Assembly (NCBI RefSeq): GCF_000585395.1
Contig: NZ_KK073875.1
Location: forward strand, 4,642,298 to 4,706,297
DNA from: Saccharibacillus sacchari DSM 19268
Lineage (GTDB): Bacteria > Bacillota > Bacilli > Paenibacillales > Paenibacillaceae
Length of the DNA: 64,000 nucleotides
Direction: 5' to 3'
Made by a program: the position numbers and the translations under genes. Positions 19,602 through 40,689 of this stretch are shown piece by piece. Position 1 is the first letter of the stretch; each line of letters opens with the position of its first letter. The notes below the pieces were generated by a model. It worked only from the letters and a program-made list of their open reading frames with translations. It was not told where the DNA came from and did not search any database.

Positions 19602-19744
19602 CGTGGGGAGAAGCTGGGACGCTGCGGGAAAAATTCGTTCAGACCGCTGTTTCACTCGGAAAATGGATTGGATTGGGATAAGGAATTTTCCGAGTTCAAA
19701 GGCGTTTTCACTGAATTTCTCCCTCCGCTAGAGCTTCTCGTACG
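19602..19744 (+). repeat. Two-tier palindromic repeat, family B, copy 1
   Basis: It lies 55 bases after the PfpI stop. The outer arms pair (GGAGAAGCT with AGCTTCTC, GGGAAAAATTC with GAATTTCTCCC). An inner perfect stem ACTCGGAAAA / TTTTCCGAGT encloses TGGATTGGATTGGG. Also present are the family motifs CGCTGTTTCACTCGG and GTTCAAAGGCG. A terminator follows 22 bases later. Confidence 0.8.
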
Positions 19745-19766
19745 AATAAGAACCTGCGATATGCCG

Positions 19767-19792
19767 GCGCCCTTTCAAAGGGCGCTTTTTTT
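19767..19792 (+). terminator. Terminator after the PfpI gene and family B copy 1
   Basis: GCGCCCTTT pairs with AAAGGGCGC around a single-base loop and is followed by seven T residues. Confidence 0.9.
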
Positions 19793-19824
19793 GTTAAGGT
19801 ATTGGAGAGGGAAAGATAAACATA

Positions 19825-19866
19825 GAAAAAAGGGACGCGAACCGGAATGTTTGCCGTCCCTTTTTT
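19825..19866. terminator. Bidirectional terminator-like hairpin
   Basis: AAAAAAGGGACG pairs with CGTCCCTTTTTT across a 16-base loop, with A- and T-runs on both sides. Confidence 0.75.
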
Positions 19867-19917
19867 GAAGATAAGGATTACTTGCTTGGAAAAATACGAT
19901 TGTTTAAAGATTCGTAT

Positions 19918-20106
19918 AAATAACTGCGGATATCCATTTATGTTTTTCTAATTTCGGGATTTCGGGCAAATAAATGCCAAGATACATTTAATCGCTCTGT
20001 TTTGCGTCTATTTTCAATTTTTCTGTTGAAATAACTGTATATCGGCACTTATTTCTTTTTTCGCAAAAGGTCCGGATCGAATAAATGTATTTACGCACTT
20101 AATGAG
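19918..20106. repeat. Array of four degenerate inverted repeats in an AT-rich gap
   Basis: Four copies of a 25-26 bp motif of form AATAAMTG, eight to nine variable bases, CAYTTA begin near 19918, 19968, 20029 and 20080. Each is an imperfect palindrome. Spacings are about 50, 61 and 51 bases, near five or six helical turns. The gap between the convergent PfpI and ptsI genes (19547-20219) otherwise holds only family B copy 1 and two terminators, and no credible reading frame. Confidence 0.55.
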
Positions 20107-20219
20107 TATTCATCCGTTCCAAGCGTACTTCTTTCTGTTTCTACGCTACTGAAAACAAGTTCGCTTGTCCATGAAATTTTAAGCGGAATCAAATTTCGCT
20201 TTTGGTTTGTTGCTCGCCC

Positions 20220-21947
20220 TTAAGGACTCACCGGAGTTACGAAATCGGACAGTAGGCGTTCGATTTCGCCGGAGCGGGCGAGACGGAAGCTTTGGCGACC
20301 GGTTTCGCGGGCCGATGAAGCCGTGGTGTTCAGCACGCGGTGTTTGACGCGCAAAAGGGATTGGGGAGACATGCTGAGCTTTTGAATGCCCAGCTCCAAC
20401 CAGATCGGGATTGCGCGTTCGTCGCCGGCCATTTCGCCGCAGACGCTGACTTCGATGCCACGGTCGCGGGCAGCGTTGGCAGTCATTCGCAGCATGCGCA
20501 GAACCGCGGGATGGAACGGGTGATACATATGGGCGATTTGTTCGTTCATTCGGTCGACCGCAAGGACGTATTGGACCAGGTCGTTGGTTCCAATGCTGAA
20601 GAAATCGACTTCTTCGGCCAGAAGATCGGCGATTGCGGCGGCGGCGGGAACTTCGATCATGATGCCGATCGAAAGGTCGCGATCATAACTCTCGCCTCGC
20701 TCGTCGAGCTGGATCATCGCTTTGCGCAATAATTCTTTGGCTTGCCGAACTTCGTCGACCGAAGAAATCATCGGGAACAGCACACGTACGTCGCCGAACG
20801 CGCTGGCTCTTAAGATCGCCCGGAGTTGGGTCAGGAAAATGTCCGGGCGGTCCAAGCAGATGCGGATCGCACGGTAACCCAAAAACGGGTTATCTTCTTC
20901 CGGCAAAGCAAAGTAATCCAACTGTTTGTCGCCGCCGATATCCAGTGTGCGAATCACGACCGGATGGCCGGATGCGCGCTCCGCAATGCGGCGATAGATA
21001 TCGAATTGTTCTTCTTCTGTCGGGAATTCGGAACGGTCCATATAGAGGAATTCGGTACGGAATAAGCCGACGCCTTTGGCACCGTGTTTCATCGACGTTT
21101 CTAATTCTTTAAACGAACTGATGTTGGCCGCCAGCGTCAATTGTTCGCCGTCGCGCGTTACCGCATCGACTTCCGCCAACAACTGAAGCTGTTCCTTTTT
21201 CCGTTGAAGCTTCAGACGCTTTTCCTCGTACACGCGCTGGGTTTCTTGATCCGGATCCACGAACAGATGGCCCTCGTCTCCGTCGATTGCCAGCAGCTCA
21301 CCTGTTTGGAAAGGCTCTTCGCGCTTGCCTTCGAGTCCTGCAACGAGAGGAATTCCGATTGCGCGCGCCATAATTGCCGAATGCGACGTTTTGCCGCCGA
21401 TTAACGTCACGATTCCCAACACATGATTCGGATTAAGATGCACAAGCTGCGATGGTGAAAGTTCTTTGGCGACCAGGATATAAGGCTGCGTATCGGAAGG
21501 AAGCTTGATCTCCGGCGCTCCCAACAAATGCTTAAGCAGTCGATTGCCTACATCTTTAATATCCGCGGCCCGTTCTTTCATATATTCGTCATCTAGCAGG
21601 TCGAACATGGTGACGAAGTGGTCGATCGCTTCTTTGACCGCCACTTCCGCCGCTTTGTACTGCCGTTCGATAATCCCCCTAATTTCACTCATGAATACCG
21701 GATCTTCCAAAATGGCAAGATGGGCATCGAAAATGCTCGATTCTTCCGGTCCCACCATTTCTTTGACTTCTTTTTTCATGTCTTCGATCTCGCAACGGGA
21801 TGTGCGAATGCCTTCGGTCAGACGTTCGAATTCGCGCGTCAGATCGACAACGTCCATCTTCTGATCCGGTATATCCCACTCCCATGTCGGCAGAACGAAC
21901 GCTCTCCCTATCGCTACGCCGGGTGCGGCTCCGATACCGATTATCAT
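20220..21947 (-). CDS. ptsI: PTS enzyme I (phosphoenolpyruvate-protein phosphotransferase)
   Basis: A 575-residue cytoplasmic enzyme starting MIIGIGAAPGVAIG after GGGGAGG. The phosphohistidine is His189 in GGKTSHSAIMARAIGIP, the same position as in well-studied enzyme I proteins. The helical HPr-binding insert occupies about residues 30-145, and the C-terminal PEP-binding barrel contains VGLFRTEFLYMDR, FFSIGTNDLVQY and VSVCGEMAG with the catalytic cysteine. It takes phosphate from PEP and passes it to HPr. It follows ptsG by 53 bases with no promoter in the gap, so the two form an operon. ptsH, usually between them, is missing. Confidence 0.96.
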   Translation of the reverse strand: MIIGIGAAPGVAIGRAFVLPTWEWDIPDQKMDVVDLTREFERLTEGIRTSRCEIEDMKKEVKEMVGPEESSIFDAHLAILEDPVFMSEIRGIIERQYKAAEVAVKEAIDHFVTMFDLLDDEYMKERAADIKDVGNRLLKHLLGAPEIKLPSDTQPYILVAKELSPSQLVHLNPNHVLGIVTLIGGKTSHSAIMARAIGIPLVAGLEGKREEPFQTGELLAIDGDEGHLFVDPDQETQRVYEEKRLKLQRKKEQLQLLAEVDAVTRDGEQLTLAANISSFKELETSMKHGAKGVGLFRTEFLYMDRSEFPTEEEQFDIYRRIAERASGHPVVIRTLDIGGDKQLDYFALPEEDNPFLGYRAIRICLDRPDIFLTQLRAILRASAFGDVRVLFPMISSVDEVRQAKELLRKAMIQLDERGESYDRDLSIGIMIEVPAAAAIADLLAEEVDFFSIGTNDLVQYVLAVDRMNEQIAHMYHPFHPAVLRMLRMTANAARDRGIEVSVCGEMAGDERAIPIWLELGIQKLSMSPQSLLRVKHRVLNTTASSARETGRQSFRLARSGEIERLLSDFVTPVSP

Positions 21948-22000
21948 CGTCCTCCCCCTCCCGTTTCTCTGTGTTTGGTCGTACCTGGACTGAAGACCAT

Positions 22001-23878
22001 TCATTTGGAACCCGTCTCCTTGTCATAGAGCACGACCGACATGACCGACCCTTGTCCTTTTTTAACCGCTTTGAACGGCGCGAAGCTCCAAGACCGCACG
22101 CGGTCCGGATTCGTAATCAACATCGGCGTTGCCAGCGATTTTGCTTTTTCCCGCAGCAGCGGCAAATCGAATCGGATCAAAAGCTGTCCCGGTTCGACGA
22201 TGTCTCCCACTTCGACGAATGCTTCGAATGCGCCTTCGATATGCGAGGTGTCGATTCCGATATGCAGCAGCACATCGACCTCCTCGTTTGTACGAATGCC
22301 CAGCGCATGCTGCGTCGGATAGATATGCAGCACGGTACCGGCCACCGGTGACACCAACTCGTCTTTTTCCGGAATGAACGCGACCCCGTCGCCAACCAGT
22401 TTTTTCGCGAAAATCTGATCCGGCACTTCGTCAAGCGGCATCATTCGACCCTGCATCGGCGACGCGAACAGCACATGATCCAACTCGCGGTCGATCAGCT
22501 TGTTTATTTCTTCCCGGATCAACTCGGAGTAAGTACCGAACACGACCTGCACGTTTCCGCCGCCCAAGCGGATCAAGCCTGCCGAACCCAATGATTTGAG
22601 CGCATGCCCGTCGACTTTGCGATCGCTTTTGACGGTCAAACGAAGTCGCGTGATGCACGCTTGTACTTGAACGATATTTTCGCGTCCGCCCAGCGCTTGC
22701 AAGATCAGAGGAGCCCGATACGGAATATTGCCGGCCCAGTCTTCGAGCGTCGAACCTTCCTCCCGTCCGGGCGTCGGAATTTGGAACTTGCGAATCGCCC
22801 AACGGAACAAAATATAATAGCCCAGCCCGTATACGATCCCGATCGGAATCAGCAGCCAGCCGTTCGTCGACAAGTGGAAGTTTAATACGAAGTCGATCAA
22901 TCCGGCCGAATACGAAAAACCGTGATGGATATCGAGCGCATACGTCAGCCACATCGCAAATCCGGCCAATACGGCATGCAGCGCGAAAAGGAACGGCGAC
23001 GCGAATAAAAACGCAAATTCGATCTGTTCGGATACGCCCGTCAATAAGCAGACGAGCGCGGCACGCACAAACGTTTTGCGCACCTTCGGCTTCAAGTCTT
23101 CGCGTGCCTCGTGGATCACGGCCATCGCCGTTGCGGGCAGCGCAAACATCATGATCGGGAACAAGCCCGCCATGAAAAATCCCGCAGTCGGGTCGCCGGC
23201 AAAGAAGCGAGGCAAGTCGCCCTGCACGATCATGCCGGAAGCCGTCTCGTAGGAACCGAATTGAAACCATACGACATTGTTGAGCAAATGATGCAAGCCG
23301 AAAGCGGATAACCCCCGGTATAAAATCCCGTATACGAACAATCCGAATCCGCCGGTGGAACGAACCTCCGAATTCAGGAAATCGATCAGTGCCTGAAGAA
23401 CGGGTCCGACCGCCAGCATGGCAAAAGCGAACAACGCCGATAATAGCCCCATGAATAGCAGGACAAAGCGTGATCCGCCAAAAAATTGGATCGTCTCCGG
23501 AAGCTTGAAGTCTTTGAAGCGGTTGTACAATGCGCCGGCAATCGCGCCGAGCAGAATACCGATCAGCGTCGTCGGCTGAATCTGTCCGCTTGCGAAATGA
23601 TCGATAACCCTCTCGTAGATGACCATGCCCATAAGCGCTGCCAAGCCGGCATATCCCGCCTGATTGGCAAGCCCCAGCGCAACGCCTACGGCAAATATAT
23701 AAGGCAGGTAGAGCAGCACGCCCGATCCTGCTACGTTCAACGCTTCGGAAACAGCCGGAAGCCCCCACGCTCCCCAGGGGAGACTGCCTGCGCTGAGCAG
23801 AATAGCCGCTGCAGGCAGGACCATCGTCGGGATCATCACGGCCCGGCCGAGCTGTTGAAGCGAACCTAACCAATTCAA
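22001..23878 (-). CDS. ptsG: PTS glucose/N-acetylglucosamine transporter, IICBA fusion
   Basis: A 625-residue protein. The start chosen is TTG (complement of 23876-23878), giving MNWLGSLQQLGRAV, because AGGAGAGGG sits about six bases upstream; no ATG is well placed. The IIC membrane domain covers about residues 1-370, with the conserved GLHHLLNNVVWFQFGSYE. The IIB domain follows, with the phosphocysteine in ACITRLRLTVKS. The IIA domain has the phosphohistidine in DVLLHIGIDTSHIEG. Sugar is phosphorylated as it crosses the membrane. The sequence is of the PtsG/NagE class; glucose versus N-acetylglucosamine cannot be fixed. A strong promoter lies just upstream and the leader is too short for a GlcT-type antiterminator site. 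Confidence 0.92.
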   Translation of the reverse strand: MNWLGSLQQLGRAVMIPTMVLPAAAILLSAGSLPWGAWGLPAVSEALNVAGSGVLLYLPYIFAVGVALGLANQAGYAGLAALMGMVIYERVIDHFASGQIQPTTLIGILLGAIAGALYNRFKDFKLPETIQFFGGSRFVLLFMGLLSALFAFAMLAVGPVLQALIDFLNSEVRSTGGFGLFVYGILYRGLSAFGLHHLLNNVVWFQFGSYETASGMIVQGDLPRFFAGDPTAGFFMAGLFPIMMFALPATAMAVIHEAREDLKPKVRKTFVRAALVCLLTGVSEQIEFAFLFASPFLFALHAVLAGFAMWLTYALDIHHGFSYSAGLIDFVLNFHLSTNGWLLIPIGIVYGLGYYILFRWAIRKFQIPTPGREEGSTLEDWAGNIPYRAPLILQALGGRENIVQVQACITRLRLTVKSDRKVDGHALKSLGSAGLIRLGGGNVQVVFGTYSELIREEINKLIDRELDHVLFASPMQGRMMPLDEVPDQIFAKKLVGDGVAFIPEKDELVSPVAGTVLHIYPTQHALGIRTNEEVDVLLHIGIDTSHIEGAFEAFVEVGDIVEPGQLLIRFDLPLLREKAKSLATPMLITNPDRVRSWSFAPFKAVKKGQGSVMSVVLYDKETGSK

Positions 23879-23906
23879 AGACGTCCCTCTCCTCTCTTCC
23901 CTACAA

Positions 23907-23935
23907 ATGTTAAGCTTTGAAAGATCGTTTGTCAA
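23907..23935 (-). promoter_or_regulatory. Sigma-A promoter of ptsG-ptsI
   Basis: On the minus strand TTGACA (23930-23935) and TAACAT (23907-23912) are separated by exactly 17 bases. The start site would fall about 20 bases before the TTG start codon. Confidence 0.75.
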
Positions 23936-24043
23936 AGAAATTACGAGGCTGCAAATCAAAGAAAAAACAAACGGCCGGACAGGGTGATTTTCCACTTAAA
24001 CAGAAAGAGTATGTATGCAAAATGAGCGAATATGGATCGAGTC

Positions 24044-24084
24044 GAAAAAATGAAGCGGCCGCACTTATCGAGCGCGGCCGCTTC
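24044..24084 (-). terminator. Terminator after the CoA-binding protein gene
   Basis: GAAGCGGCCGC and GCGGCCGCTTC pair perfectly with an 11-base loop, followed on the minus strand by ATTTTTT. Confidence 0.88.
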
Positions 24085-24114
24085 TTCATTCTTCATTCGA
24101 CTACAATCCGCGGA

Positions 24115-24549
24115 TCAGCGTCGGCTTCCGGCACCGGTCACGGCGTCTTCCACCTTGATGCAGCGATCCATGATGACGGTCAGTCCTGCTTCTCCGGCAA
24201 TCTCGGCAGCTTCGTCGCTGAAGACGCCGGATTGCAGCCACAGTGCCTTGGCGCCCGCCGCTACGGCTTCGCGCGCAACGTCCGCGCAAAATTCGCTGCG
24301 GCGGAATACGTCCACGATATCGATCGGCTCAGGCACCTCCGCTAATGAAGCGTAACAAGTCTCGCCGAGAATCTGTTGTCCGGCGGCGGTCGGGTTTACC
24401 GGAATGATCCGATAGCCGCGCGACTGCATCGCTTGCGAAACCATATAGGATGTCCGGTCGCTTTTATCGGAGAGTCCGACCACGGCGATATTGCCCGCTT
24501 TTTCAAGCAATGCGCCGATCTCGTCCCGGCTTGGATTTTGAAAAGGCAT
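24115..24549 (-). CDS. CoA-binding protein (YccU/YneT family)
   Basis: A 144-residue single-domain Rossmann protein. The start MPFQNPSRDEIGALLEKAGN has AAAGGAGG upstream. The nucleotide-binding stretch is NIAVVGLSDKSDRTSYMVSQ; later motifs are YRIIPVNPTAAGQQILGET, PIDIVDVFRRSEFCADV and KALWLQSGVFSDEAAEIAGE, matching the stand-alone CoA-binding domain family related to succinyl-CoA synthetase alpha. The conserved near-terminal cysteine is in VIMDRCIKVE. The physiological role is unknown. It starts 17 bases after the aroA stop and is probably cotranscribed with it. Confidence 0.9.
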   Translation of the reverse strand: MPFQNPSRDEIGALLEKAGNIAVVGLSDKSDRTSYMVSQAMQSRGYRIIPVNPTAAGQQILGETCYASLAEVPEPIDIVDVFRRSEFCADVAREAVAAGAKALWLQSGVFSDEAAEIAGEAGLTVIMDRCIKVEDAVTGAGSRR

Positions 24550-24566
24550 AGATATTCCTCCTTTTC

Positions 24567-25859
24567 TTATTCTTTTACCCATTCGACATTTGCGCCAAGC
24601 GCGATCATGTCATCGAAAAAGCCCGGGTACGATTTGGCAACGTGATGCGCGTCGGTGATCGTCACCGGCTCGTCCGCTCTAAGTCCCACGATCGTCAGCG
24701 CCATAATGACGCGGTGGTCGTAATGCGAATCGATCCGAACGCCGCCCGCTACGCCCTGCGGACGCCCGTGCACGATAATCTCGGCCTGCTTTTCCTCGAC
24801 GTCGGCCCCGGCTTTGCGCAGTTCGTTCAGATAGTCGGTAATCCGATCGCATTCTTTGTAACGAAGGTTCTCGACATTGTAAAAACGCGAGGTTCCTTCA
24901 GCAAAGACGGCTGCCGCTACCATCGCAAGCACGGCATCGGTCGCAGCGTCGCCGTCGAATTCCAAAGCTTTCAGCTGACCGGTTCCTTTTACGACCGCGA
25001 TATCGTTCTCATGCGTCAACGGAGTTTCCATCATTTGCAGGACATCGACCACGGCGCGTTCGCCCTGCTTGCTGTTTACCGCCAAACGGCGTACAGTGAC
25101 GTCGGACGGAACTACCGCAGCTGCCGAAAGGATCGCCGCGGAACCCGGATAGTCGCCTTGAACGGAATATTCGCCTGCTCGATAAGCTTGGCCTCCGGGC
25201 ACGCGGAACAGCGAATAGTCTTCGTTGGCTTCGACCCGGATTCCCGCTTGCTCCAACACTTCCAGCGTTTGACCGACGACGACTTTCGATTTCAGGTCGC
25301 CGGTTACGGTAATCTCGCTATCGGCTTCGAGCAGCGGCGTCAGGAACAGAAGCGCGCTCAAATACTGCGAACTGACTTCGCCGGATACGGTGATTTTGCC
25401 GCCTTGCACGGGCCCTTTGACCGTGATCGGCAGACGACCGCCGTTATCGTCGATCGTCGCTCCCATTTGACGCAGCGCCTCGATCAGATCGTCATGCGGG
25501 CGTTTGCCGAGGGAATCGGGATACGTATTGACGAAATGTACGTCTTCCGACAACGCGGCGATCGCGAGCAGGAAGCGCAGCACCGCGCCTGCATTGCCTA
25601 CATTAAGTTCCGCGACGCGTTTCGGATTGCGGCCGAAGCCTTTGATCACGATTTTCTCGTCGTCTTCTTCAAGTTCCGCGCCCAGCTCCGCAATGCAGCG
25701 GCGCATCGCATCGCTGTCTTCGCTGTGTGCCGGGAAACGTACCGTGCTTGTTCCGTCCGCAAGCGCGGCGACAAGCAGGTAACGGGTCGTGTAGTTTTTG
25801 GAGGACAGCGCCTCGATCGTTCCTTCAAGCTTTTCCGTTCGTCTGACAATCACGTCCAT
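24567..25859 (-). CDS. aroA: EPSP synthase (3-phosphoshikimate 1-carboxyvinyltransferase), divergent active site
   Basis: A 430-residue shikimate-pathway enzyme that joins PEP to shikimate 3-phosphate. The two-domain fold is intact. The N-terminal motif is SSKNYTTRYLL with the PEP/substrate-binding Lys21 and Arg26. The usual NAGTAMRP motif appears as NAGAVLRF (residues 89-96), so the threonine and proline next to the PEP site are alanine and phenylalanine. The C-terminal RYKECDRI, SHYDHRVIMAL and AKSYPGFF motifs keep the expected acidic, Arg and Lys residues. It is not within an aromatic operon; the only close neighbour is the downstream CoA-binding gene. Confidence 0.92.
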   Translation of the reverse strand: MDVIVRRTEKLEGTIEALSSKNYTTRYLLVAALADGTSTVRFPAHSEDSDAMRRCIAELGAELEEDDEKIVIKGFGRNPKRVAELNVGNAGAVLRFLLAIAALSEDVHFVNTYPDSLGKRPHDDLIEALRQMGATIDDNGGRLPITVKGPVQGGKITVSGEVSSQYLSALLFLTPLLEADSEITVTGDLKSKVVVGQTLEVLEQAGIRVEANEDYSLFRVPGGQAYRAGEYSVQGDYPGSAAILSAAAVVPSDVTVRRLAVNSKQGERAVVDVLQMMETPLTHENDIAVVKGTGQLKALEFDGDAATDAVLAMVAAAVFAEGTSRFYNVENLRYKECDRITDYLNELRKAGADVEEKQAEIIVHGRPQGVAGGVRIDSHYDHRVIMALTIVGLRADEPVTITDAHHVAKSYPGFFDDMIALGANVEWVKE

Positions 25860-25902
25860 GACTATATTCCTCCAATATTGTGGGTCTGATTTCTATTTAA
25901 AT

Positions 25903-25932
25903 TTGACACAAGTTTTTCCTCTTCGCTATCAT
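25903..25932 (+). promoter_or_regulatory. Sigma-A promoter of the rhodanese gene
   Basis: TTGACA (25903-25908) and TATCAT (25927-25932) are 18 bases apart, 35 bases before the start codon. Confidence 0.7.
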
Positions 25933-25967
25933 GGATTTATCCCAACCGAAAGAAAGGCAGGATTGCC

Positions 25968-26276
25968 ATGAATTCTATTGCACAAATCCAACCTTCGGAG
26001 CTGCGCGAGCGCATCGAACAAGGTAATGTACCGCTGATGATCGACGTACGCGAACCCGAAGAAGTCGCCCAGGGCATGATCCCCGGCGCCGTCCATATCC
26101 CTCTCGGCCAGTTGGCCGGCCGATTGGACGAACTCGATCAAGATCGCGAGACAGTGTTTATTTGCCGCAGCGGCTATCGCAGCGAACGGGCTTGCGAATA
26201 TCTGGAGCAGTCCGGATTCGACAAGGTGATCAATCTCGAAGGCGGTATGATCGCCTGGAGCGAAGACGAAGCCTGA
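25968..26276 (+). CDS. Single-domain rhodanese-like sulfurtransferase
   Basis: A 102-residue rhodanese domain. Conserved features are PLMIDVREPEEVAQGMIPGA, VHIPLGQLAGRL, the active-site loop FICRSGYRSERA with Cys66, and a C-terminal VINLEGGMIAWSE. Small rhodaneses of this kind move sulfane sulfur between thiols in the cytoplasm; the acceptor is not known. GAAAGGCAGGA precedes the ATG. It is monocistronic with its own promoter, and family B copy 2 begins 15 bases after its stop codon. Confidence 0.92.
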   Translation: MNSIAQIQPSELRERIEQGNVPLMIDVREPEEVAQGMIPGAVHIPLGQLAGRLDELDQDRETVFICRSGYRSERACEYLEQSGFDKVINLEGGMIAWSEDEA

Positions 26277-26290
26277 TCCGGGCGGCTTAT

Positions 26291-26514
26291 TCGCGGGTGA
26301 CGCGGAGGGCGCTGCGGGAGAAATTGCCAGCATAGGCTTCCGAAGTGCATTTCTTCGAAATGCTTCACAAAACGCTGTCTCACTCGGAAAACTGGATTGG
26401 AATTTAAATGGAAGTTTTCTGAGTTCAAAGGCCAACATAGCGCTACATGTTACCGCAGGTTTTCTTCGAAATTCTGTATTTCACTGAATTTCTCCCTCCG
26501 CTCGGCGCGTGTCC
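26291..26514 (+). repeat. Two-tier palindromic repeat, family B, copy 2 (long form)
   Basis: Outer arms include GGGAGAAATT with AATTTCTCCC and flanking GC-rich arms. The inner stem is ACTCGGAAAACT with AGTTTTCTGAGT. The core CGCTGTCTCACTCGGAAAA, TGGATTGGAATTTAAA and GTTCAAAGGC matches the other copies. It also carries a segment shared only with copy 3 (GTTACCGCAGGTTTTCTTCG). It is followed by a T-run at 26527-26533 and a small hairpin. Confidence 0.8.
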
Positions 26515-26561
26515 AAGAATAAGAGATTTTTTTAATTAAATAGCGTTACTGAAATACCATG

Positions 26562-26582
26562 AGGAGCCGTAGGGCTCCTTTT
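26562..26582 (+). terminator. Small terminator-like hairpin downstream of the rhodanese gene
   Basis: AGGAGCC pairs with GGCTCCT around a 4-base loop and is followed by four T residues. The rest of the 26515-26750 stretch is AT-rich and shows no gene that I can support. Confidence 0.6.
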
Positions 26583-26752
26583 GTATATCAAATAAAAAAG
26601 ACTGCAAAGCTTGATCGCTTCTATTACTATACATGGTTTTGCTTTTTAGTTCAATAATTAGACGCTGTGAAGCGTTAAAATATCTACATTTGAGGCCGCT
26701 GATGAACAAGTTTATATTCGCGACTCGATCACCGCTAAAAATTCCGAATAAC

Positions 26753-26797
26753 AAAAAACGGCTGAGGGCAGTCCCGGAAGACGGCCCCCGCCGTTTT
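26753..26797 (-). terminator. Terminator after gnd
   Basis: On the minus strand AAAACGGC pairs with GCCGTTTT, with an inner GGGGGC / GCCCTC pairing, followed by TTTTTTG. Confidence 0.75.
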
Positions 26798-26854
26798 GCG
26801 AATTCGAACCGGGTTAAGCGTGAACGATTCGAAGTTGGTTTGAAAATTTGGGTC

Positions 26855-28273: not shown

Positions 28274-28321
28274 TTTAGGTTCTCCATCCTTTGCGTATGA
28301 AATAGAGTTGCAATAATTTTC

Positions 28322-28350
28322 ATTGTACCCGTTTTGTTTAGTAAAGTGAA
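28322..28350 (-). promoter_or_regulatory. Probable sigma-A promoter of gnd
   Basis: On the minus strand TTCACT (28345-28350) and TACAAT (28322-28327) have a 17-base spacer, about 50 bases before the start codon. Confidence 0.6.
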
Positions 28351-28525
28351 GTCCTCGGAATTAGGAATACATTCAAAATGATATACTTAATCCGTGGATT
28401 TTTAAAAAGATTCGGTCGCTTTAACGTCGCAAAGCGCGTCAGTAAGCCAAAAACGCGATTTTGTTCACTCGGAATCTTTTCGAAAAATAAATCACGGCTT
28501 CATAAACTCTTCATGTTCCCCAAGC

Positions 28526-28556
28526 TTGTTCGCCCCCCTCCCGCCTATGCTATAAT
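28526..28556 (+). promoter_or_regulatory. Probable sigma-A promoter of yktB
   Basis: TATAAT is perfect (28551-28556); TTGTTC (28526-28531) is a weak partner at a long 19-base spacing. The rest of 28351-28525 shows nothing that I can support. Confidence 0.5.
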
Positions 28557-28605
28557 GGCCGATGAATCGCTTGTCCGAGCGGCTATTTTTGAAAGGGGCA
28601 CGAAC

Positions 28606-29241: not shown

Positions 29242-29245
29242 CGCC

Positions 29246-29297
29246 AAAGACCGCCGATTCGCTTCATGCCACGCATGCGCGAACCGGCGGTCTTTTT
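29246..29297 (+). terminator. Terminator after yktB
   Basis: AAAGACCGCCG pairs with CGGCGGTCTTT, with an inner ATTCGC/GCGAA pairing, followed by TTTTTA. Confidence 0.88.
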
Positions 29298-29407
29298 ACG
29301 CGACGACATCGCCTCGATAACTGTGACGCGAAAAAGATCGGTTAGCGCCAGAATGCCGAATCTTTCGCGACTCCGCTCCGGAATGCCGACGCGGGCGCGG
29401 TTGACCT

Positions 29408-30317: not shown

Positions 30318-30345
30318 CAAAAAAAGCCGCCATGCATGGCGGCTT
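30318..30345 (-). terminator. Terminator after the MFS gene
   Basis: A perfect 22-base palindrome, AAGCCGCCATG / CATGGCGGCTT, is followed on the minus strand by TTTTTTTG. Confidence 0.88.
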
Positions 30346-30409
30346 CAGGTTATTGAGAAAATTACGCTTGTGGGAGAAGGCAGAAGCCTCCTATTCGCAC
30401 ACGGCCGAG

Positions 30410-31693: not shown

Positions 31694-31830
31694 AACCTCT
31701 TGCCCCTTTCGGGCCGCTTGCGTGGTCATCGCAGCAGGCCTCTCCACATCCCGCGCTCTTTTGAACGCGGTTTTCTATTTATCGATCCATACGTAGCAAG
31801 TTCCTTATGCCATTATATCGGCTCCTTTGA

Positions 31831-32754: not shown

Positions 32755-32894
32755 CTCTTCTTCTCCCCCCGCATATCCGGGTCCGCAAAATTGCCTTCTT
32801 GCAATCCGGCCCCGTTTTGCTATACTCAGTTTGTTTGATTTTTTTATTAGTGCTTCAACATACTCTACGCACACGAAAGGTTGTGACAACCCTA

Positions 32895-34373
32895 ATGGAT
32901 CATGCTCGTACTCCGCTTTTCACTGCGCTTCAGCGCCATGCGGATCAAAATCCGGTACAGTTTCACATTCCAGGTCACAAGAAAGGAATGGGGATGGATC
33001 CGGAATTTCGTGAATTTATTGGGGATAACGCCCTTTCCATAGACCTGATAAATATCGCTCCCCTTGACGATTTGCATCAGCCTATGGGCGTGATCGAAGA
33101 AGCGCAGCAGCTTGCCGCGGACGCATTCGGCGCTACGCATACCTTCTTCTCCGTTCAAGGCACAAGCAGCGCGATCATTACGATGATCCTGTCTGTGTGC
33201 GGTCCGGGCGACAAAATCATCGTCCCGCGCAACGTGCACAAGTCGATTCTCGGCGCCATCATTTATGCAGGAGCCAAACCGGTATTCATTGCGCCGGAAC
33301 GCGATACCAACCTCGGGATCGATCACGGCATCACGGTAAGCTCGGTGAAAAAAGCACTGAAACTGCACGGCGATGCCAAAGCTCTGCTCGTTATCAACCC
33401 GACCTACTACGGCGTGTGCGCGGATCTGCAGCAGATCGTCGCATTGTCGCACAGCTACGGCGTTCCCGTGCTGGTCGACGAGGCTCACGGCGTCCTGATC
33501 CATTTCCACGACCAATTGCCGTTATCGGCGATGCAGGCCGGAGCGGACATGGCAGCGACGAGCGTGCACAAATTGGGCGGTTCGATGACGCAAAGCTCGG
33601 TACTCAACGTGAATACGCGCAACGGCTACATCAATCCCAAACGGGTACAGACGGTGATCAGCATGCTGACCACGACGTCCACCTCTTATATTCTGCTCGC
33701 TTCGCTCGATACGGCCCGCCGTCAGCTTGCGCTGAACGGATATGCGATGGCCGAGCGCGCGCTCGATTTCGCAGACTATGCGCGAAGCGCGATCAACCAG
33801 ATCGAAGGCCTGTACTGCTTCGGCGAAGAAATTCTCGGCAGCGAAGCGACGTACGACTACGACCCGACCAAGATCACGATTCAGGTTCGCCGTCTCGGCA
33901 TCACGGGATACGAAGCCGAGAACTGGCTGCGCGACAATCATAACATCGAAGTCGAAATGAGCGACATGTACAACGTCCTGTGCCTCATTACAGCCGGCGA
34001 CAACGAAGATACAGTCAAGATCCTGCTAAGCGCGCTGCGCGAGATGGCTGAGGAATTCCGCGGTCAAGGCAAAGCGGTCAAAGAACTGGCAGTCAAGATT
34101 CCGGACATTCCGCATTTGGCCCTGCTTCCGCGCGACGCTTTCTACGGCGAGACCGAGTCGATTCCGTTCAAGGATTCGGCGGACCGCATCATCGCCGAGT
34201 TCATCTACGTGTACCCGCCGGGCATTCCGATCCTGCTGCCGGGCGAGGTTATCACGCAAGAGAACATCGATTATATCACGGATCACGTCGAAGTCGGCCT
34301 GCCGGTCAAAGGACCGGAAGATCGCAGCGTGCAGTTCGTCAAAGTTATCGTAGAGCCGGGCGCGATCCGTTAA
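32895..34373 (+). CDS. speA: Arginine decarboxylase (PLP-dependent, Orn/Lys/Arg family)
   Basis: A 492-residue enzyme closely matching B. subtilis SpeA along its length (TPLFTALQRHADQNPVQFHI, DLINIAPLDDLHQPMGVIEE, SVLNVNTRNGYINPKRVQ). The PLP lysine is Lys226 in TSVHKLGGSMTQSS, and the preceding DEAHGV aspartate binds the pyridine nitrogen. It makes agmatine from arginine, the first step of polyamine synthesis. The ATG at 32895 gives the family N-terminus, but the ribosome site is poor: AAAGG lies about 14 bases upstream with a small GGTTGT/ACAACC hairpin between. Family B copy 3 and a terminator follow. Confidence 0.93.
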   Translation: MDHARTPLFTALQRHADQNPVQFHIPGHKKGMGMDPEFREFIGDNALSIDLINIAPLDDLHQPMGVIEEAQQLAADAFGATHTFFSVQGTSSAIITMILSVCGPGDKIIVPRNVHKSILGAIIYAGAKPVFIAPERDTNLGIDHGITVSSVKKALKLHGDAKALLVINPTYYGVCADLQQIVALSHSYGVPVLVDEAHGVLIHFHDQLPLSAMQAGADMAATSVHKLGGSMTQSSVLNVNTRNGYINPKRVQTVISMLTTTSTSYILLASLDTARRQLALNGYAMAERALDFADYARSAINQIEGLYCFGEEILGSEATYDYDPTKITIQVRRLGITGYEAENWLRDNHNIEVEMSDMYNVLCLITAGDNEDTVKILLSALREMAEEFRGQGKAVKELAVKIPDIPHLALLPRDAFYGETESIPFKDSADRIIAEFIYVYPPGIPILLPGEVITQENIDYITDHVEVGLPVKGPEDRSVQFVKVIVEPGAIR

Positions 34374-34422
34374 AAGGGGTTTGTGCATGGTGTTCGGGAA
34401 GGCCGCTCAGGGGGCCTCAGGC

Positions 34423-34648
34423 TGTCGAAAAAGTCACGTTGGCGCGGGAAGCGAGAAGACTCCGAGAAAAATTCGTTCAATTCGCTGTCTCACTCGGAAA
34501 GTGGATTGGATTTGAATAAGGTATCTTTCCGAGTTCAAAGGCGTCAACATCGCGCTGAATGTTACCGCAGGTTTTCTTCGAAATCCTGTATTTCACTGAA
34601 TTTTTCTCTCCGTCTTCTCGCTTCCAGCTACGTTAGACTTTCTCGACA
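34423..34648 (+). repeat. Two-tier palindromic repeat, family B, copy 3 (long form)
   Basis: It begins 50 bases after the speA stop. Outer arms pair over a long distance: TGTCGA with TCGACA, GGAAGCGAGAAGAC with GTCTTCTCGCTTCC, AGAAAAATTC with GAATTTTTCT. The inner stem is ACTCGGAAAG with CTTTCCGAGT. The core CGCTGTCTCACTCGG, TGGATTGGATTTGAA and GTTCAAAGGCG is intact. The speA terminator lies directly after it, so the whole element should be in the speA 3'-UTR. Confidence 0.85.
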
Positions 34649-34650
34649 TG

Positions 34651-34675
34651 TTAAGGCCGCTTATGCGGCCTTTTT
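34651..34675 (+). terminator. Terminator after speA and family B copy 3
   Basis: AAGGCCGC and GCGGCCTT pair around TTAT, followed by TTTTTG. Confidence 0.9.
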
Positions 34676-34736
34676 GTTTTGTGTAGTATAACGCAAAAAC
34701 GGATGCGCTCGTTCGAGACATCTGTTTTTTTGCATC

Positions 34737-34767
34737 AAAAAAGCGGCCTCGCTCGGGGAGGCCGCTT
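34737..34767 (-). terminator. Terminator after the DUF1292 gene
   Basis: AAGCGGCCTC pairs with GAGGCCGCTT, followed on the minus strand by TTTTTTG. Confidence 0.9.
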
Positions 34768-34771
34768 CTTC

Positions 34772-35104
34772 TTATTCTTCGCCTTGTGCCGCAACCAGCT
34801 CGTTATAAGCTGCTTCGACCTTGGCCCACTCTTCTTCTTCCTCAATGTTGACGAGAACGGTCTCGCCGTCTTCTTCTTCGAGGCGCAGAATGAAGCCGTC
34901 GGCTTCCGGATTGTTGCGCTCGAGCAGCAAAGCATAAACGTCTTCGCCGACGTCGAAAGTCTGTACGAGAACCATTTCTTTCTCGTTGCCTTCTTCGTCG
35001 CTGAATGCGACTACGATCTCTTCGTCGTGGCTATGGTCATGACCGCATCCGCAATCGTCGCCGTGCTCGTGATTGTGGGAATGGTTATGTTCGTGTTCGC
35101 TCAT
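34772..35104 (-). CDS. DUF1292 protein with a histidine-rich N-terminus
   Basis: A 110-residue acidic protein. The C-terminal two thirds match the DUF1292 (YrzB-like) family: EIVVAFSDEEGNEKEMVLVQ, VYALLLERNNPEADGFILRL and VLVNIEEEEEWAKVEAAYNE. The first 28 residues are different: eight histidines alternate with Glu, Asn, Asp and Ser around a CGC motif, a pattern seen in metal-binding tails. Metal binding by this tail is inferred; the DUF1292 core has no known activity. It is monocistronic with a terminator. Confidence 0.88.
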   Translation of the reverse strand: MSEHEHNHSHNHEHGDDCGCGHDHSHDEEIVVAFSDEEGNEKEMVLVQTFDVGEDVYALLLERNNPEADGFILRLEEEDGETVLVNIEEEEEWAKVEAAYNELVAAQGEE

Positions 35105-35221
35105 TGTGGTAAAACCCCGTTTCTACAGCGCATACGCGCAAGCATATACGCCCTGAATTTAATAGACACAGATTATCCTACCACTTCGTCCGCCGGAGGT
35201 CAATTTGCCTCGTCACTTCGT

Positions 35222-35770
35222 TTAATCGACGGCGTTGATCGTTTTTTGAGCCACCATCGAGTAGGAACCGCCGCTCTTTTTGATATAAAACTCGACGTAA
35301 TATTTGCCCGCGCGGCTGAAGTCGTAGGTAAAGTCGTACGTCTTGAACCAGAAGTTGTCTTTGCGCGAACTCAACTCCTGCGACTGAATGTCTTTCACTT
35401 CCCCGGACGGGTTGCGAATGGCTACTTTTACGGCTTCGATATCGGTATTCAGGTTGTCGATTTGCGAGAAGATATAGAATTTCAGCTTCCCTACGCTGAC
35501 GTTACCGAACGGCGTATCTCCTTTGAAAAGAAAAATATCGACGTTGGGCTTGGTAAAAGTCACGGTTCTCGTATTGTCGTTATACTCAGCCAAACCGTCG
35601 AACTCGCGAACCGGCACATATGTAGTTCCGTCGATCAGGTAACCGCCCGTGCTTACCGCGCTACCGTTAATCAGAACCCGTATTTTCTGAAAAGCCGAAT
35701 CGGCAAATGCAACGGAACCGCTGAGCAGCGACAAAGCCAGCGTACAGACCGCAATTCTTTTCCACCTCAT
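35222..35770 (-). CDS. Secreted stalk-domain (copper amine oxidase N-terminal-like) protein
   Basis: A 182-residue protein with a clear signal peptide (MRWKRIAVCTLALSLLSGSV, cleavage after AFA). Residues 28-70 form one stalk-domain repeat (IRVLINGSAVSTGGYLIDGT, TYVPVREFDGLAEYNDNTRT). The rest is beta-rich (KLKFYIFSQIDNLNTDIEAV, FSRAGKYYVEFYIKKSGGSY), like an Ig-type fold. Stalk-domain proteins are common in the Paenibacillus envelope and are thought to be extracellular modules; no enzyme motif is present. It is monocistronic and divergent from the metallo-hydrolase gene. Confidence 0.85.
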   Translation of the reverse strand: MRWKRIAVCTLALSLLSGSVAFADSAFQKIRVLINGSAVSTGGYLIDGTTYVPVREFDGLAEYNDNTRTVTFTKPNVDIFLFKGDTPFGNVSVGKLKFYIFSQIDNLNTDIEAVKVAIRNPSGEVKDIQSQELSSRKDNFWFKTYDFTYDFSRAGKYYVEFYIKKSGGSYSMVAQKTINAVD

Positions 35771-36009
35771 TTTCCGGCGTCATCCTCTCTATGTCGTTGG
35801 AATTTTCGCAAGTCGAGGCACTTCCCCTCTGCATCGCTTGCAGGCCTTTTCATAAAGCCTTTCTTATACATGTATACTCCGCCGCCGCTGTCAAGTTGCG
35901 GTCCTTTTGTTGATTCCGGCAGGGAAATCGTCCATAATAATGCGGAAGAAACGGCATGCGTCGGATAGGTCGCCGATGCTCGTCGACTACAGAAATGGGG
36001 GCATGTGCA

Positions 36010-36738
36010 ATGAAGCTGCAAATGATCGGAACAGGAAACGCTTTTGCCAAGAAATACTTCAATAACAACGCATTGATCGAGCAAGACGGATTCAAGCTGT
36101 TGATCGACTGCGGCATTACCGCGCCTCTGGCGCTGTACGAGCTGGGCATCGGCATGGAAGAGCTTGATGCCGTGCTGATCACGCATACGCACGGGGACCA
36201 TGTAGGCGGCCTGGAAGAGTACGGTTTTCAGATGAAGTTCAAGCATGGACGCAAGCCGGTGCTGTATATGGCGGATACGTTGATCGAACCGCTGTGGAAC
36301 CATACGTTATCCGGCGGGATGACGCAGGAAGGGTTGGACAAGCTCGAAGACGCGTTTGAAGTGAGGCAGTTGCGGGCAGGCGAAGTTCAGGAGCTTGCGC
36401 CGAATTTATGCGTGGAGCTGCTGCGGACTCGGCATATCGCGGGGAAGAAGAGCTATTCGGCCATTTTGAACCGGGATGTGTTCTATAGCGCGGATATGAC
36501 GTTCGACCGGGAGTTGTTGGAGACCTTGGTGCGCGATCGCGGGATACGGAGAATTTTACATGAGGTACAGCTTGAAGGGCCGGGTCAGGTGCATACGACG
36601 CTGGACGAGTTGTTGTCGCTGCCGGAAGAGATTCAGGAGATGACGAAACTGATGCATTATGCGGACAATAAGGATCAGTTTGAAGGACGGACGGGGAAGA
36701 TGGGCTTCCTTGAGCAGGGGGAGGTTTATTCGATCTGA
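36010..36738 (+). CDS. MBL-fold metallo-hydrolase (RNase Z-like)
   Basis: A 242-residue protein. The ATG at 36010 follows GGGGGC; the reading frame extends upstream to 35956 without a better site. The MBL zinc motif is [16 protein letters not shown] (HxHxDH), with further ligands [23 protein letters not shown] and [18 protein letters not shown]. The pattern is closest to the RNase Z/YycJ-like side of the family rather than to beta-lactamases. The substrate is unknown. Codon use becomes markedly richer in G near the 3' end. Family B copy 4 starts about 12 bases past the stop codon. Confidence 0.88.
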
Positions 36739-36750
36739 GGGTGGCGCTTG

Positions 36751-36880
36751 GGGCGGGGCTGCGGGGGAGTTCGTTTCGGTCGCGTGTTGCAATCGGGAAA
36801 TTTGAATTGGGTTTAAATGGGGATTTCCCGATTGCAAAGGCGAACGCTTCGCTCCTGCACTGAACTCCCCCTCCGCCCTG
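36751..36880 (+). repeat. Two-tier palindromic repeat, family B, copy 4 (diverged)
   Basis: A perfect 15-bp inner stem TTGCAATCGGGAAAT / ATTTCCCGATTGCAA encloses TTGAATTGGGTTTAAATGG. Outer arms GGGCGG and GGGGGAGTTC pair with GAACTCCCCC and CGCCC. The primary sequence differs from other copies, yet the layout, the GATTGGATTT-like loop and CAAAGGCG are kept. Confidence 0.7.
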
Positions 36881-36920
36881 CTTCGACGCTCGGATAAACG
36901 TTTAGGGATGTAGAGCTTGC

Positions 36921-36960
36921 GAGAAAAGGATCGACGCGAATTTGCGCCGATCCTTTTCTC
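36921..36960. terminator. Bidirectional terminator between the metallo-hydrolase and P450 genes
   Basis: GAGAAAAGGATCG and CGATCCTTTTCTC pair perfectly, with an inner CGC/GCG pairing, between convergent genes. Confidence 0.85.
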
Positions 36961-37036
36961 GTTGCTTAAAACGCCTTATTTTTAGTTCGCATGAGTTATG
37001 CGCGCCCTGCTCCCTTCGGGAGGACGGGAGAGAGCT

Positions 37037-37066
37037 CTACTTCTACTTCTACTTCTACTTCTACTT
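37037..37066. repeat. Tandem hexanucleotide repeat (CTACTT)5
   Basis: Five exact head-to-tail CTACTT units lie 22 bases past the stop codon of the P450 gene. A shorter related run (CTTCTACTTCTA) occurs near 42747. Confidence 0.9.
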
Positions 37067-37087
37067 ATCATACAGCCTATTTGTGAC

Positions 37088-40000
37088 TTAAATCCCTGTC
37101 CATACGTCCTTCACGTAGCGGCCGGATTCCTGGAGACCGTCGAGCCACTTCTGCGACTCTTCTTCGCTTGCGCCGTGAACGTCGGCGTAAGCGCGGCGCA
37201 GGGTGGTTTCGACGTCGGGTGCCATGCGGGTGCCGTCGCCGCAGACGTAGAAGATGCCTCCCGCGTCCAGCAGGCGGACGACTTCGGTTGTGTTTTCGGC
37301 CATGCGGTGCTGCACATAGGTTTTGGGTTGGCCGTCGACGCGGGAGAAAGCGGTGTGCAGGTGCACGAGACCTTCTTGAGCGTAGGCTTCCAATTCGTCT
37401 TGGTAGAGATAGTCGGTATCCGGGTTGCGGCAGCCGAAGTAGAGTTGGGCTTCGCCGAGGGCGATGCCTTGTTCATGTTGGACGTGACGGGCTTGCAGGA
37501 AGCCGCGGAACGGGGCCAACCCTGTTCCGGGGCCGACCATGATGATCGGCGTCGTTGGATCTTCCGGCAAAGCGAAGCCGCTGCCCGGGTCGCGGATAAA
37601 GGCGGATAGTTCGGTGCCTTCAGGGAGCGAAGCCAGGTAGTTGGAGGCAATGCCTGCGTATTCGCCGTTGCCGCTGCGCGCCGGGCCGCGAACGACGGCT
37701 ACGGTGAGGCTTAGTTTGCTCGCGTCAAGCTTGGGTGAGCTGGAAATGGAGTAGTAACGCGGCTTCAATGGCGGAAGCAACGTCAAGAAGCGATGGAATT
37801 CCATTTCGCAGGCCCGGTATTTTTCCAGGATATCCAGCATGGTCAGGCGTTTGAACAAGACTTCGCGCTTATAGGTCTCGTCGTCGTTCATTAGGGCTTC
37901 GATTTCGACGCGATGCGGCGGACAAACGGTATGTTCCGCAAGTTCCTTGAGCTGTGCCCGGGTGGCAGGCTCCTGAAGTTCCACGCTGCTTGTGAGCAGT
38001 TCGCGCAGCTCTACGGCTTGATCCAACGGCAGATGCGCCGCCGCGCGGCCGCTGCCGCGAAGTTGCACTTGCGCATCTCCCTGAAGACCGAAACGGGATA
38101 AGACCCGATCCACTAACGTACGCGGATTGCGCGGCAGGACGCCCAGATGATCGCCTTCTTTGTATGAAGCGCCGGAAGGTACTTGCAGTTCGATATGCAA
38201 AGTGCTGCGTCCGCCTTCCGGCCGCTGCAGCTCGAAGCTGCGCAAGAGGGTCATCGGAATCGCGCCGTACGTATCCGCGAGCGGCGATGAAGATCGGGAA
38301 TCCTGGATGAACTCGACCGCGATACCGCCTGCTTGTTCTTCTGCCGCTTCAGGTACCTTCGCTTCAATCCCCAATGCTTTTAGCGCGGCCGGCCACAGTT
38401 GAATTTTCCACTCGTCGAGCATTTGCTCGAAGTCATCGTTGGCATCGCCTTCGCCGCGTTCCAGCGCTTTTTGCCCGCCGATCCGTTCCAGCGCTTCATC
38501 GACCAGGCGAGGAATCCGCTGATAAGTGCTGGCCCAGTTGCGGTCCCCGCAACCAAAGACGGCGTAGTGCAGACCTTTTGCTTCGTTGGCTTGCGCCTTT
38601 TCCAACCAAGCGACGAAATTCCCTGCATTGGACGGCGGACGTCCGTTGTAGGAAGCGGTAACGACGATCAGCAGACCTTGTTTAGGGAGGTTATCCGTCG
38701 CGTTGTCCATTTTCGATACGGTCGGCCGGAAGCCGAAGCGCTCGCCCTCCTCGGCCAGCTCATGCGCAATCCCCTCCGCCGTTCCCAAATTGGAGCCGTA
38801 CAAAATCGTTAACGGAGTCTCGTGTCGATTCACTTCGATAAGCTGTTCTCGGGATTCCGGTTCGGCAGCCGCTGCTCCGGCCGGACCGCTACCTTCGCTA
38901 CCGAATACCGAACCGACCGGAGCCATCGGCGCATTGGCGCGCGGACGTACTTGCATCGTGAAGCCGTCCGGCTTGAGGGTTAGCGTCTCCTTGACCTTCA
39001 GTTCATAATTCGCGCCGTCCGCAAACTCGAAATGCCGCAGCAGCACTCCCAAGACCAGCGTTGCTTCGTGCAGGGCAAACTGCTGACCGATGCAAGCCCG
39101 CTGGCCGTTGCCGAAAGGCTTATAGGCATCGTCGGGCACTTTCGAAGGATCTTCGAACCGTTCGGGCCGGAAAGCTTCGACGTCGTCGCCCCATGCGTCT
39201 TTGTCCCGATGCAGCACCGGGATCAGCACATTGACCGCCTCGCCCTGTTTCATCGGGTAACGTCCGGCGAGCAGCGTATCTTCTTTGGCTCGCAGGGAAA
39301 AGGCTGGGGCGGTCGGCCAAAGTCGCAGCGATTCGCTCAAGATCATCCGGATGTACTTCATCTCGCGCACCTGCTTGTAAGTCGGCGCAGAGGAATCGCT
39401 CAGGATCCGGTCCACTTCGTCTTGCGCTTTTTTCAGCTTATCCGGATTATGCAGCAGGAAGTATAGGGCAAAAGACAGCAATCCGCTGGTCGTCTCGTGT
39501 CCCGCGATGAGGAAAGTAATGATCTGATAGCGGATATTTTCGTCGGACAATGCTTCGCCCGTATCGGAATCTTCGCCGCTCAGCATGTTATTCAATAAAT
39601 CGTTCTCGCCCTGGTCCCCGTGTTCGCGGCGTTCCTTCACGATCTTGTCGACAAGCGAGAACATGTAGTCGATATCATGACGCATTTGCGCCTTTTTGCC
39701 GATCATCAGCTTATTCTGCACGCCCAGACGCTGAAGCTGACTCATGGCTTCGTCCAGCGAACGCGTCATGGCTTCAACGAACGGATGATTGGACTCCCGG
39801 TAAAAGCTGTTGAAGCGATAATGGAAACCGCATAGTCCGATCGTATCCAATGTCAGGCGAGTCATGTCTTCGGGCACGTCGACGAATTCTTCGGGATTCA
39901 GCCGCGCCCACTTCTGCACAAGCTGCATCGCGATATCGACCATCATATCGTGATAGCCGATCATGGCGCGTTGACTGAAGCTCGGCATCAAAATATTGTG

Positions 40001-40309
40001 CGCTTTGCGCCAGTTGGGTTCTTCCGTCCAGCTCGTAAACAGTCCGTCTCCGGCAAAGGAACGAACATTTTGCAGCGGAGCCCAGACATTTTTCTCGAAT
40101 CGGGATTCGTCGCAGGCATCGCCTACCAGCTCTCGGCCGGAAATATAAAGATTGCCCGAACGTCCGGGCAGATCCATTTTGAAAATAGGACCCTGCTCCT
40201 CCGCCAGCTTCATGAGCGATTGGACGGGAGCTTTAGTATCGACGAGCGGCAAATTGCCGAGCGGGCCGAATGTTTTGGGTTGAGGAATGATCGTTTCGTT
40301 CGTTGCCAT
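37088..40309 (-). CDS. Bifunctional cytochrome P450/NADPH-P450 reductase (CYP102A, P450 BM3 type)
   Basis: A 1073-residue self-sufficient fatty-acid hydroxylase closely matching P450 BM3. The start [20 protein letters not shown] follows GAAAGGAGATC. The heme domain (1-470) has the I-helix AGHETTSG (about 269-276), ESLR at 326-329, and the heme ligand Cys406 in [14 protein letters not shown]. The substrate-channel arginine (Arg50) and active-site phenylalanine (Phe91) of BM3 are kept, but the residue matching BM3 Tyr51 is leucine. The FMN domain follows ([20 protein letters not shown]), then the FAD/NADPH domain ([34 protein letters not shown]). hxlR lies upstream in the same direction with family B copy 5 between. 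Confidence 0.96.
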
Positions 40310-40554
40310 GTTTCGATCTCCTTTCTTTGCTTCAGCAGACCATATGACTGATTGACCCATTTGAGCATTCGGTTCTGAAGCACTTCTCTACCCTTGTCCC
40401 GTTCACCGCTGATTGAAACGAATTTTTCAGAAAATAAGCAAAAAGCCCTCCCCGTGTCTTCAGTCCCTATAAATAAGGAGCGAAGTATCGAAAAAGGCTG
40501 TTATTTAAAAAATGGTAAATATCGACGCTTTATCTTTCCCGCTCCACCGTAGCT

Positions 40555-40689
40555 GGAAGCGAGAAGACGGAGAGAAAAATTCAGTTCAAGACGCCTTTGA
40601 ACTTGGAAAACCTACAACTAAAATTCCAATCCAGTTTTCCAAGTGAGACAGCGAATTGAACGAATTTTTCTCGCAGTCTTCTCGCTTCC
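40555..40689 (-). repeat. Two-tier palindromic repeat, family B, copy 5 (minus orientation)
   Basis: Read on the minus strand it begins nine bases past the hxlR stop. Outer arms GGAAGCGAGAAGAC / GTCTTCTCGCTTCC and GAGAAAAATTC / GAATTTTTCTC, and inner arms CTTGGAAAAC / GTTTTCCAAG, all pair. The core CGCTGTCTCACTTGG, TGGATTGGAATTTT and GTTCAAAGGCG matches copies 1-3. A short fragment resembling the 5' edge (GAAAAATTCGTTTCAAT) recurs near 40410-40430. Apart from these, the 40310-40698 gap shows no gene. Confidence 0.85.

Follow-up and report, generated by a model that had tools for sequence, protein, structure and literature searches.

In a window of 64,000 nucleotides from Saccharibacillus sacchari DSM 19268 (positions 4642298-4706297 of a 6.08-Mb genome), a structured repeat termed family B occurs five times, each copy in sense orientation after a gene. 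We consider it highly probable that family B is a miniature inverted-repeat transposable element (MITE) that would be moved in trans by a transposase of the IS1182 family, would be targeted to intrinsic terminators, and would leave the terminator hairpin duplicated. Direct support comes from an end motif held in common with an insertion sequence (IS), from hairpin duplications, from one empty orthologous site, from a patchy distribution with high copy number, and from absence from called genes. All but the last of these strongly support mobility, which the initial annotation of the window had named as one possibility. Family B is new as a family and known in kind: a Saccharibacillus MITE that has ends of IS1182 type and inserts into intrinsic terminators. 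Among the papers listed in a literature search, with most subscription papers outside its scope, none describes it in the title or the opening of the abstract. Two of the papers searched mention both Saccharibacillus and a transposase, and their titles concern other genera.

The element is ∼190 bp long (about 150-240 bp) and short terminal inverted repeats, TGTCGAGAAAGT and ACTTTCTCGACA, form its ends. Copies of the young subtype start with TCAGGC-TGTCGAGAAAGT and end with ACTTTCTCGACA-CGTTGA. Among 81 copies in relatives, a fuzzy left end is present in 49 and a fuzzy right end in 65; the corresponding counts for 141 copies of the S. sacchari genome are 42 and 80. At most 13 of 56 young copies are open through the core in any one reading frame, and core lengths modulo 3 are distributed 14, 23 and 19. 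Neither a transposase nor any other coding sequence is present. When the S. sacchari genome was searched for the young start with two mismatches allowed, one end of each of two 1,558-bp IS copies encoding a PF13751 transposase was also recovered. This IS starts with TCAGGC-TGTCGAGAAAC and ends with GTTTCTCGACA-TTCTGA. A 257-aa part of its transposase scores 286.5 bits against the NCBIfam IS1182 model (NF033551), above the cut-off of 270, and a 190-aa part scores 212 bits, below that cut-off. Three of the four full IS copies read (L031 and L032 in S. sacchari, L228 in congener G003) lie between duplicated hairpins, with flank scores of 42, 40 and 62. A second IS1182-family IS of the S. sacchari genome (L033) has a 453-aa open transposase frame scoring 460 bits against NF033551 and a duplicated hairpin with a flank score of 52; one of its termini reads TGTCGACAAA and the opposite one TGTTGACAAA.

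Copies of the IS with the family-B end motif were found in S. sacchari, G002 and G003, and remnants in G002 and G008; PF13751 matches at L034 and L229, which do not have these ends, were left out of the count. An IS or remnant with family-B ends is therefore present in four of the six genomes that bear the element, and the six non-bearing genomes of the genus have no PF13751 match. Some family-B copies, including the first of the window, have ends of the CCTATTCGT type. The idea that these ends are unrelated and belong to a different transposon was rejected, because CCTATTCGT is the inner part of TGTCGAGAAAGTCCTATTCGT in copies from relatives. Motif searches led to no recognised IS with CCTATTCGT-type ends at the six of seven lone sites that were read.

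Flank duplication was scored as a local alignment of the two flanks of a copy reaching a score of at least 28, with mismatched flank pairs as controls. By this measure the flanks are duplicated for 13 of 141 copies in the S. sacchari genome (0 of 702 mismatched pairs), for 22 of the 30 best-scoring loci of five congeners (0 of 289), and for 49 of 81 copies that surround matches to one subtype pattern within named records of Saccharibacillus (0 of 401), the 81 being those of 89 copies with full and distinct flanks. At the 30 congener loci the typical copy has the arrangement hairpin-TCAGGC-TGTCGAGAAAGT...ACTTTCTCGACA-CGTTGA-hairpin-T-run, and the flanking hairpins vary between sites and match across the element.

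Within the window, copy B3 (34423-34648, plus strand) is the only one with a clear hairpin duplication, as judged by eye. It lies in the terminator of a gene labeled speA-like in the initial annotation. The 5′ hairpin, AAGGCCGCTCAGGGGGCC, occupies 34399-34416 and its 3′ counterpart, AAGGCCGCTTATGCGGCC, occupies 34653-34670, the latter continuing into a T-run (AAGGCCGCTTATGCGGCCTTTTT, 34653-34675). The left end, TCAGGC-TGTCGAAAAAGTCACG (34417-34438), is an IS1182-type terminal inverted repeat, and the right end, GACTTTCTCGACA, spans 34636-34648, all on the plus strand. An orthologue of the speA-like gene exists in all 11 congeners examined, and no match to the family-B covariance model at E ≤ 1 was obtained in any of the 11 orthologous regions. 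Each of these regions has a terminator hairpin after the gene (by eye). In the nearest congeners the hairpin is of the same kind as that of the window (for example GGCCGCTTGAATGCGGCC in G003), and it is present there as a single copy. The empty-site comparison covers this one site.

The distribution of the element is uneven even within the genus. Genome-wide model searches, in which the best 150 candidates per genome were scored so that counts are lower bounds, gave at least 22 matches at E ≤ 10−10 in G002, at least 87 in G003, at least 39 in G007, at least 15 in G008 and at least 75 in G010. Six of 12 genomes of the genus, that of S. sacchari included, have at least 15 such matches. The six others and two genomes of other families gave no match at E ≤ 10−10, and six further genomes of the order gave none at E ≤ 10−30. 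When a subtype pattern was compared with one genome each of 84,980 species, at least 107 stretches matched, and the 80 listed are all from Saccharibacillus; viral contigs had no match to one subtype pattern.

BLAST and covariance-model searches revealed many copies in the S. sacchari genome beyond the window. A scan of 2.4 Mb of this genome (three blocks) with a profile that, like the covariance model, was built from family-B copies, and from which reverse-strand self-matches were removed, gave 156 copies, some of which are fragments of a single copy. If this sample is typical, ∼400 copies of one MITE family are present in this genome, many of them at terminators. Gene context was assessed for the 148 matches of at least 90 nt, using genes called by a custom script. 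For all 148, overlap with any called gene is 30 nt or less. Removal of seven copies that form one tandem array leaves a set of 141 (56 young, 79 older and six unassigned to a subtype); motifs and stems were counted on all 148. Young copies have a median identity of 83% over 300 random pairs. The array itself (locus L075, G000:C1:4581313-4582151) consists of seven family-B cores with a 124-bp period, in a region that also carries identical 1.1- and 1.3-kb duplications.

The initial annotation had described family B as found only in sense orientation. This holds for the five window copies, an outcome with a chance of about 0.06 (0.56^5) at the observed rate, but not for the genome. Among the 148 copies, 79 lie in sense orientation after a gene, at a median of 33 nt past the stop codon, 52 lie antisense in gaps between co-directional genes, and the remaining 17, including the seven of the array, occupy divergent gaps. 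The 141-copy set accordingly comprises 79 sense copies (53 in convergent gaps and 26 in co-directional gaps), 52 antisense copies in co-directional gaps and 10 copies in divergent gaps. Directional insertion relative to the gene is not supported either, since antisense copies outnumber sense copies in the co-directional gaps of this genome (52 to 26). In relatives, 72 copies have a gene on each side, 46 of these have duplicated hairpins, and those of the 46 that lie in co-directional gaps divide into nine sense and 10 antisense.

These data are consistent with a scheme in which an IS1182-family transposase, encoded by the IS described above or by a close relative, would recognize the element ends in trans. 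The element would insert at the foot of the stem-loop of an intrinsic terminator, and the whole hairpin would be copied, leaving one hairpin on either side of the element; the sequence of steps at the hairpin is presumed. The location 3′ of genes would then follow from the choice of terminators as targets, which would also explain why the repeat looks like a 3′-untranslated region (UTR) motif.

Several observations weigh against this explanation. The cleanest sets of duplications are selected ones, either best-scoring loci or copies of one subtype, and 128 of the 141 copies in the S. sacchari genome have no duplication at the cut-off; these may be older copies in which the second hairpin has decayed. 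Nor is duplication universal for the IS, as the hairpins at the two ends of the copy at L227 (G002) differ (flank score 16); the remnant at L231 has a flank score of 14. All four full IS copies read (L031, L032, L227 and L228) carry a split transposase frame, which leaves activity unproven. The split is the same throughout, with open reading frames of 190 and 257 aa in different frames in three species (L227 from G002 and L228 from G003), and this conservation points to programmed frameshifting and not to decay. No IS with family-B ends was found in G007 and G010, although some copies there have duplicated hairpins; loss, an assembly gap or another donor must explain this, and the co-occurrence of IS and element (four of six against none of six genomes) is suggestive only. 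Origin of the element interior by internal deletion of the IS was rejected, as interior and IS show no notable homology outside the ends (190 blastn-short matches, of which the 15 listed are 9-14 nt long with E values of 0.016 or weaker). A MITE leaves unexplained the compensated inner stems, the nearly fixed CAAAGG motif and the way in which neighboring copies face each other; the conserved fold and the facing pairs make family B not wholly ordinary.

Excluding the array, 26 pairs of neighboring copies lie less than 700 bp apart, of which 25 are convergent, one has both copies in the same direction and none is divergent (p = 6×10−8 for 25:0). The lone same-direction pair, with a gap of 14, is perhaps one split copy. 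Gene direction cannot explain the facing arrangement, because 18 of the 26 pairs lie between co-directional genes. A hairpin is found between the two copies in 19 of the 26 pairs, compared with 11 of 52 equally long outer flanks. Over the 141 copies, a hairpin with a T- or A-run within 150 nt occurs only on the 3′ side of 66, only on the 5′ side of 15, on both sides of 14 and on neither side of 46. The excess on the 3′ side is strong among sense copies (22 to 2 for paired and 26 to 4 for single copies). Among antisense copies the corresponding values are 5 to 3 and 13 to 6, which is not significant, and a pure rule of hairpin polarity is therefore not proven. By subtype, with another cut-off, the ratios are 16 to 6 for young copies (p = 0.05) and 30 to 5 for older copies. 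Because the copies with duplicated hairpins in relatives have hairpins on both sides and no bias in gene orientation, the polarity may be set when the second copy inserts, or it may result from one hairpin being lost later. Among the matches listed for relatives, two pairs are convergent and one is same-direction. The facing-pair bias is a specific and testable puzzle.

The initial annotation had proposed that stem sequences vary while pairing is kept, and the larger set of copies bears this out. Among 117 distinct inner stems, a mean of 10.68 of 12 positions are paired, whereas 3′ strands dealt to other copies and put through the same offset search give 9.32 (standard deviation 0.065, 200 shuffles). 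RNAalifold predicts 25 pairs from a 34-copy alignment, eight of them with pair-keeping changes on both sides, and the covariation term is small. Of the single-stranded motifs proposed as fixed, CAAAGG[CT] is indeed nearly so, with 146 of 148 copies carrying it; the 5′ motif, in contrast, has at least two forms, GCTGT[CT]TCAC in 87 of 148 copies and CGCGTGTTG in 34 of 148. A search of the window against Rfam returned no family at gathering score except a tRNA, and matches for four family-B loci at E ≤ 1 are all far below gathering score. A match to the end of an IS, which the initial annotation had listed among the results that would refute its observation, was found.

Because the stems are compensated, CAAAGG is nearly fixed and copies mostly have their 3′ end towards the terminator hairpin, it is conceivable, although rather unlikely, that selection acts on the core itself as a nucleic-acid module, which would then be more than passive MITE filling. 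A fold read by a transposase or host factor that sets the polarity of insertion relative to a hairpin would fit such selection. So would a 3′-end RNA element that is retained where sense transcription runs through it towards the terminator.

Another explanation is that family B is a 3′-UTR RNA module acting on mRNA stability or regulation, that selection keeps it where it is of use, and that mobility is just its means of spread. The compensated stems and the nearly fixed CAAAGG speak for such a module, as does the position of sense copies shortly after the stop codon, which would give long structured 3′ transcript ends, and so does the placement of the terminator-like hairpin of sense copies, 3′ in 48 and 5′ in six. 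We nevertheless regard it as improbable, given that the 141 copies include 52 that lie antisense in co-directional gaps and 10 in divergent gaps, that copies with duplicated hairpins in relatives show no preference of orientation, that none of 11 congeners has the speA copy, and that half of the 12 genomes of the genus have no copies at E ≤ 10−10.

The high copy number, extragenic location, palindromic structure and opposite orientation of neighbors are reminiscent of repetitive extragenic palindromes (REP) and bacterial interspersed mosaic elements (BIME), which would be moved by a REP-associated tyrosine (Y1) transposase. Such an origin is very improbable here, since the ends match those of an IS of the DDE-type IS1182 family and target duplications are present; to our knowledge, Y1 elements make no target duplication. 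Least credible of all is a joint origin of hairpins and element as a long-lived bidirectional terminator structure without transposition, for although convergent gaps hold 26 of the 46 copies with duplicated hairpins in relatives, an enrichment over the background (85 of 365 gaps), the same element lies between hairpins that vary from one site to the next, and the speA site, lacking the element in 11 of 11 congeners, contradicts the idea at that one site.

Targeting of hairpins has precedents in the IS1182 family. IS1272 and TnSha1 of staphylococci and ISCbo5 target stem-loops that are largely terminators, with no primary-sequence consensus reported. ISCbo5 is described with a hairpin around it at gene ends (PMC3098183), and the model of stem-loop targeting by IS1272 has one branch that leads to a copy of the stem-loop on either side (PMC5678879). 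For IS1272 itself, the hairpin is reported as replaced or partly deleted, with no duplication (PMC5678879, PMC4923244). These elements, whether IS or composite, carry a transposase gene. Family B lacks one, and many of its copies have a duplicated hairpin. Family B resembles bacterial MITEs such as QMITE of Coxiella and the pneumococcal RUP, BOX and SPRITE elements in being short and non-coding with terminal inverted repeats, and likewise in its structured transcripts, high copy number, intergenic location and nested insertions (PMC10969869, main text). It differs from them in its IS1182-type ends, its terminator-hairpin target and the duplication of the whole hairpin, and the main text of that review does not mention IS1182. 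With REP and BIME (PMC2817692) it shares many-copy extragenic palindromes whose neighbors alternate in orientation; it is longer than these and differs in its IS1182-type ends and target duplications.

Family B warns that placement 3′ of genes together with covariation is no proof of RNA function. The hairpin duplications and element-free sites across Saccharibacillus constitute a natural experiment on how transposases of IS1182 type choose and copy stem-loops, and the same experiment bears on how an added structured 3′ end affects expression.

The five copies reported in the initial annotation can be aligned with one another, and the covariance model recovers exactly these, B1 to B5, as the only credible copies in the window (75-164 bits, on the strands reported); the next non-overlapping match has an E value of 0.2. 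Apart from B3, their outer limits are approximate. B1 (19590-19754, core 19602-19744, plus strand) belongs to the subtype with ends CCTATTCGT and ACGAATAAG, and a terminator-like hairpin with a T-run, recognized by eye, follows directly 3′ at 19762-19794 on the same strand. Its flank score of 32 is above the cut-off, but the alignment looks low in complexity and was not counted as a clear duplication. B2 (26287-26525, core 26291-26514, plus strand) has extra sequence in both arms. B4 (36725-36900, core 36751-36880, plus strand) has divergent stems, and its outer arm apparently extends over the upstream stop codon. B5 (40540-40710, core 40555-40689, minus strand) is of the young subtype, with a degenerate left end that overlaps the stop codon at 40699-40701.

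Folding of individual copies was performed for B1, B3 and B5. Relative to dinucleotide shuffles, B3 and B5 fold far better (z = −7.0 and −7.2) and B1 moderately better (z = −2.8). The single structural plan first described for the five copies is borne out in part: its inner stem forms in the minimum-energy folds of B1 and B5, whereas in that of B3 a competing pairing takes its place. B2 (26433-26500) and B3 (34545-34612) have in common a 68-nt stretch of the 3′ arm, 91% alike, that forms an extra side hairpin and is visible in some other family-B copies too. It is possible that this stretch is a smaller nested insertion.

A second family of palindromic repeats (TTAGTACCTTATCAACTC...) occurs in the window at 4168-4276 and 50317-50425, with partial copies at 8036-8074 and 63429-63459. 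Elsewhere in the S. sacchari genome, at G000:C1:5560316, a sequence similar to this repeat lies inside family-B-like outer arms, so that hairpin elements are nested in hairpin elements. At about 800-1020 of locus L031, repeats resembling clustered regularly interspaced short palindromic repeats (CRISPR; GTCGCTCCCCACGCGGGAGCGTGGATTGAAAC) lie near one IS1182 copy and one family-B copy.

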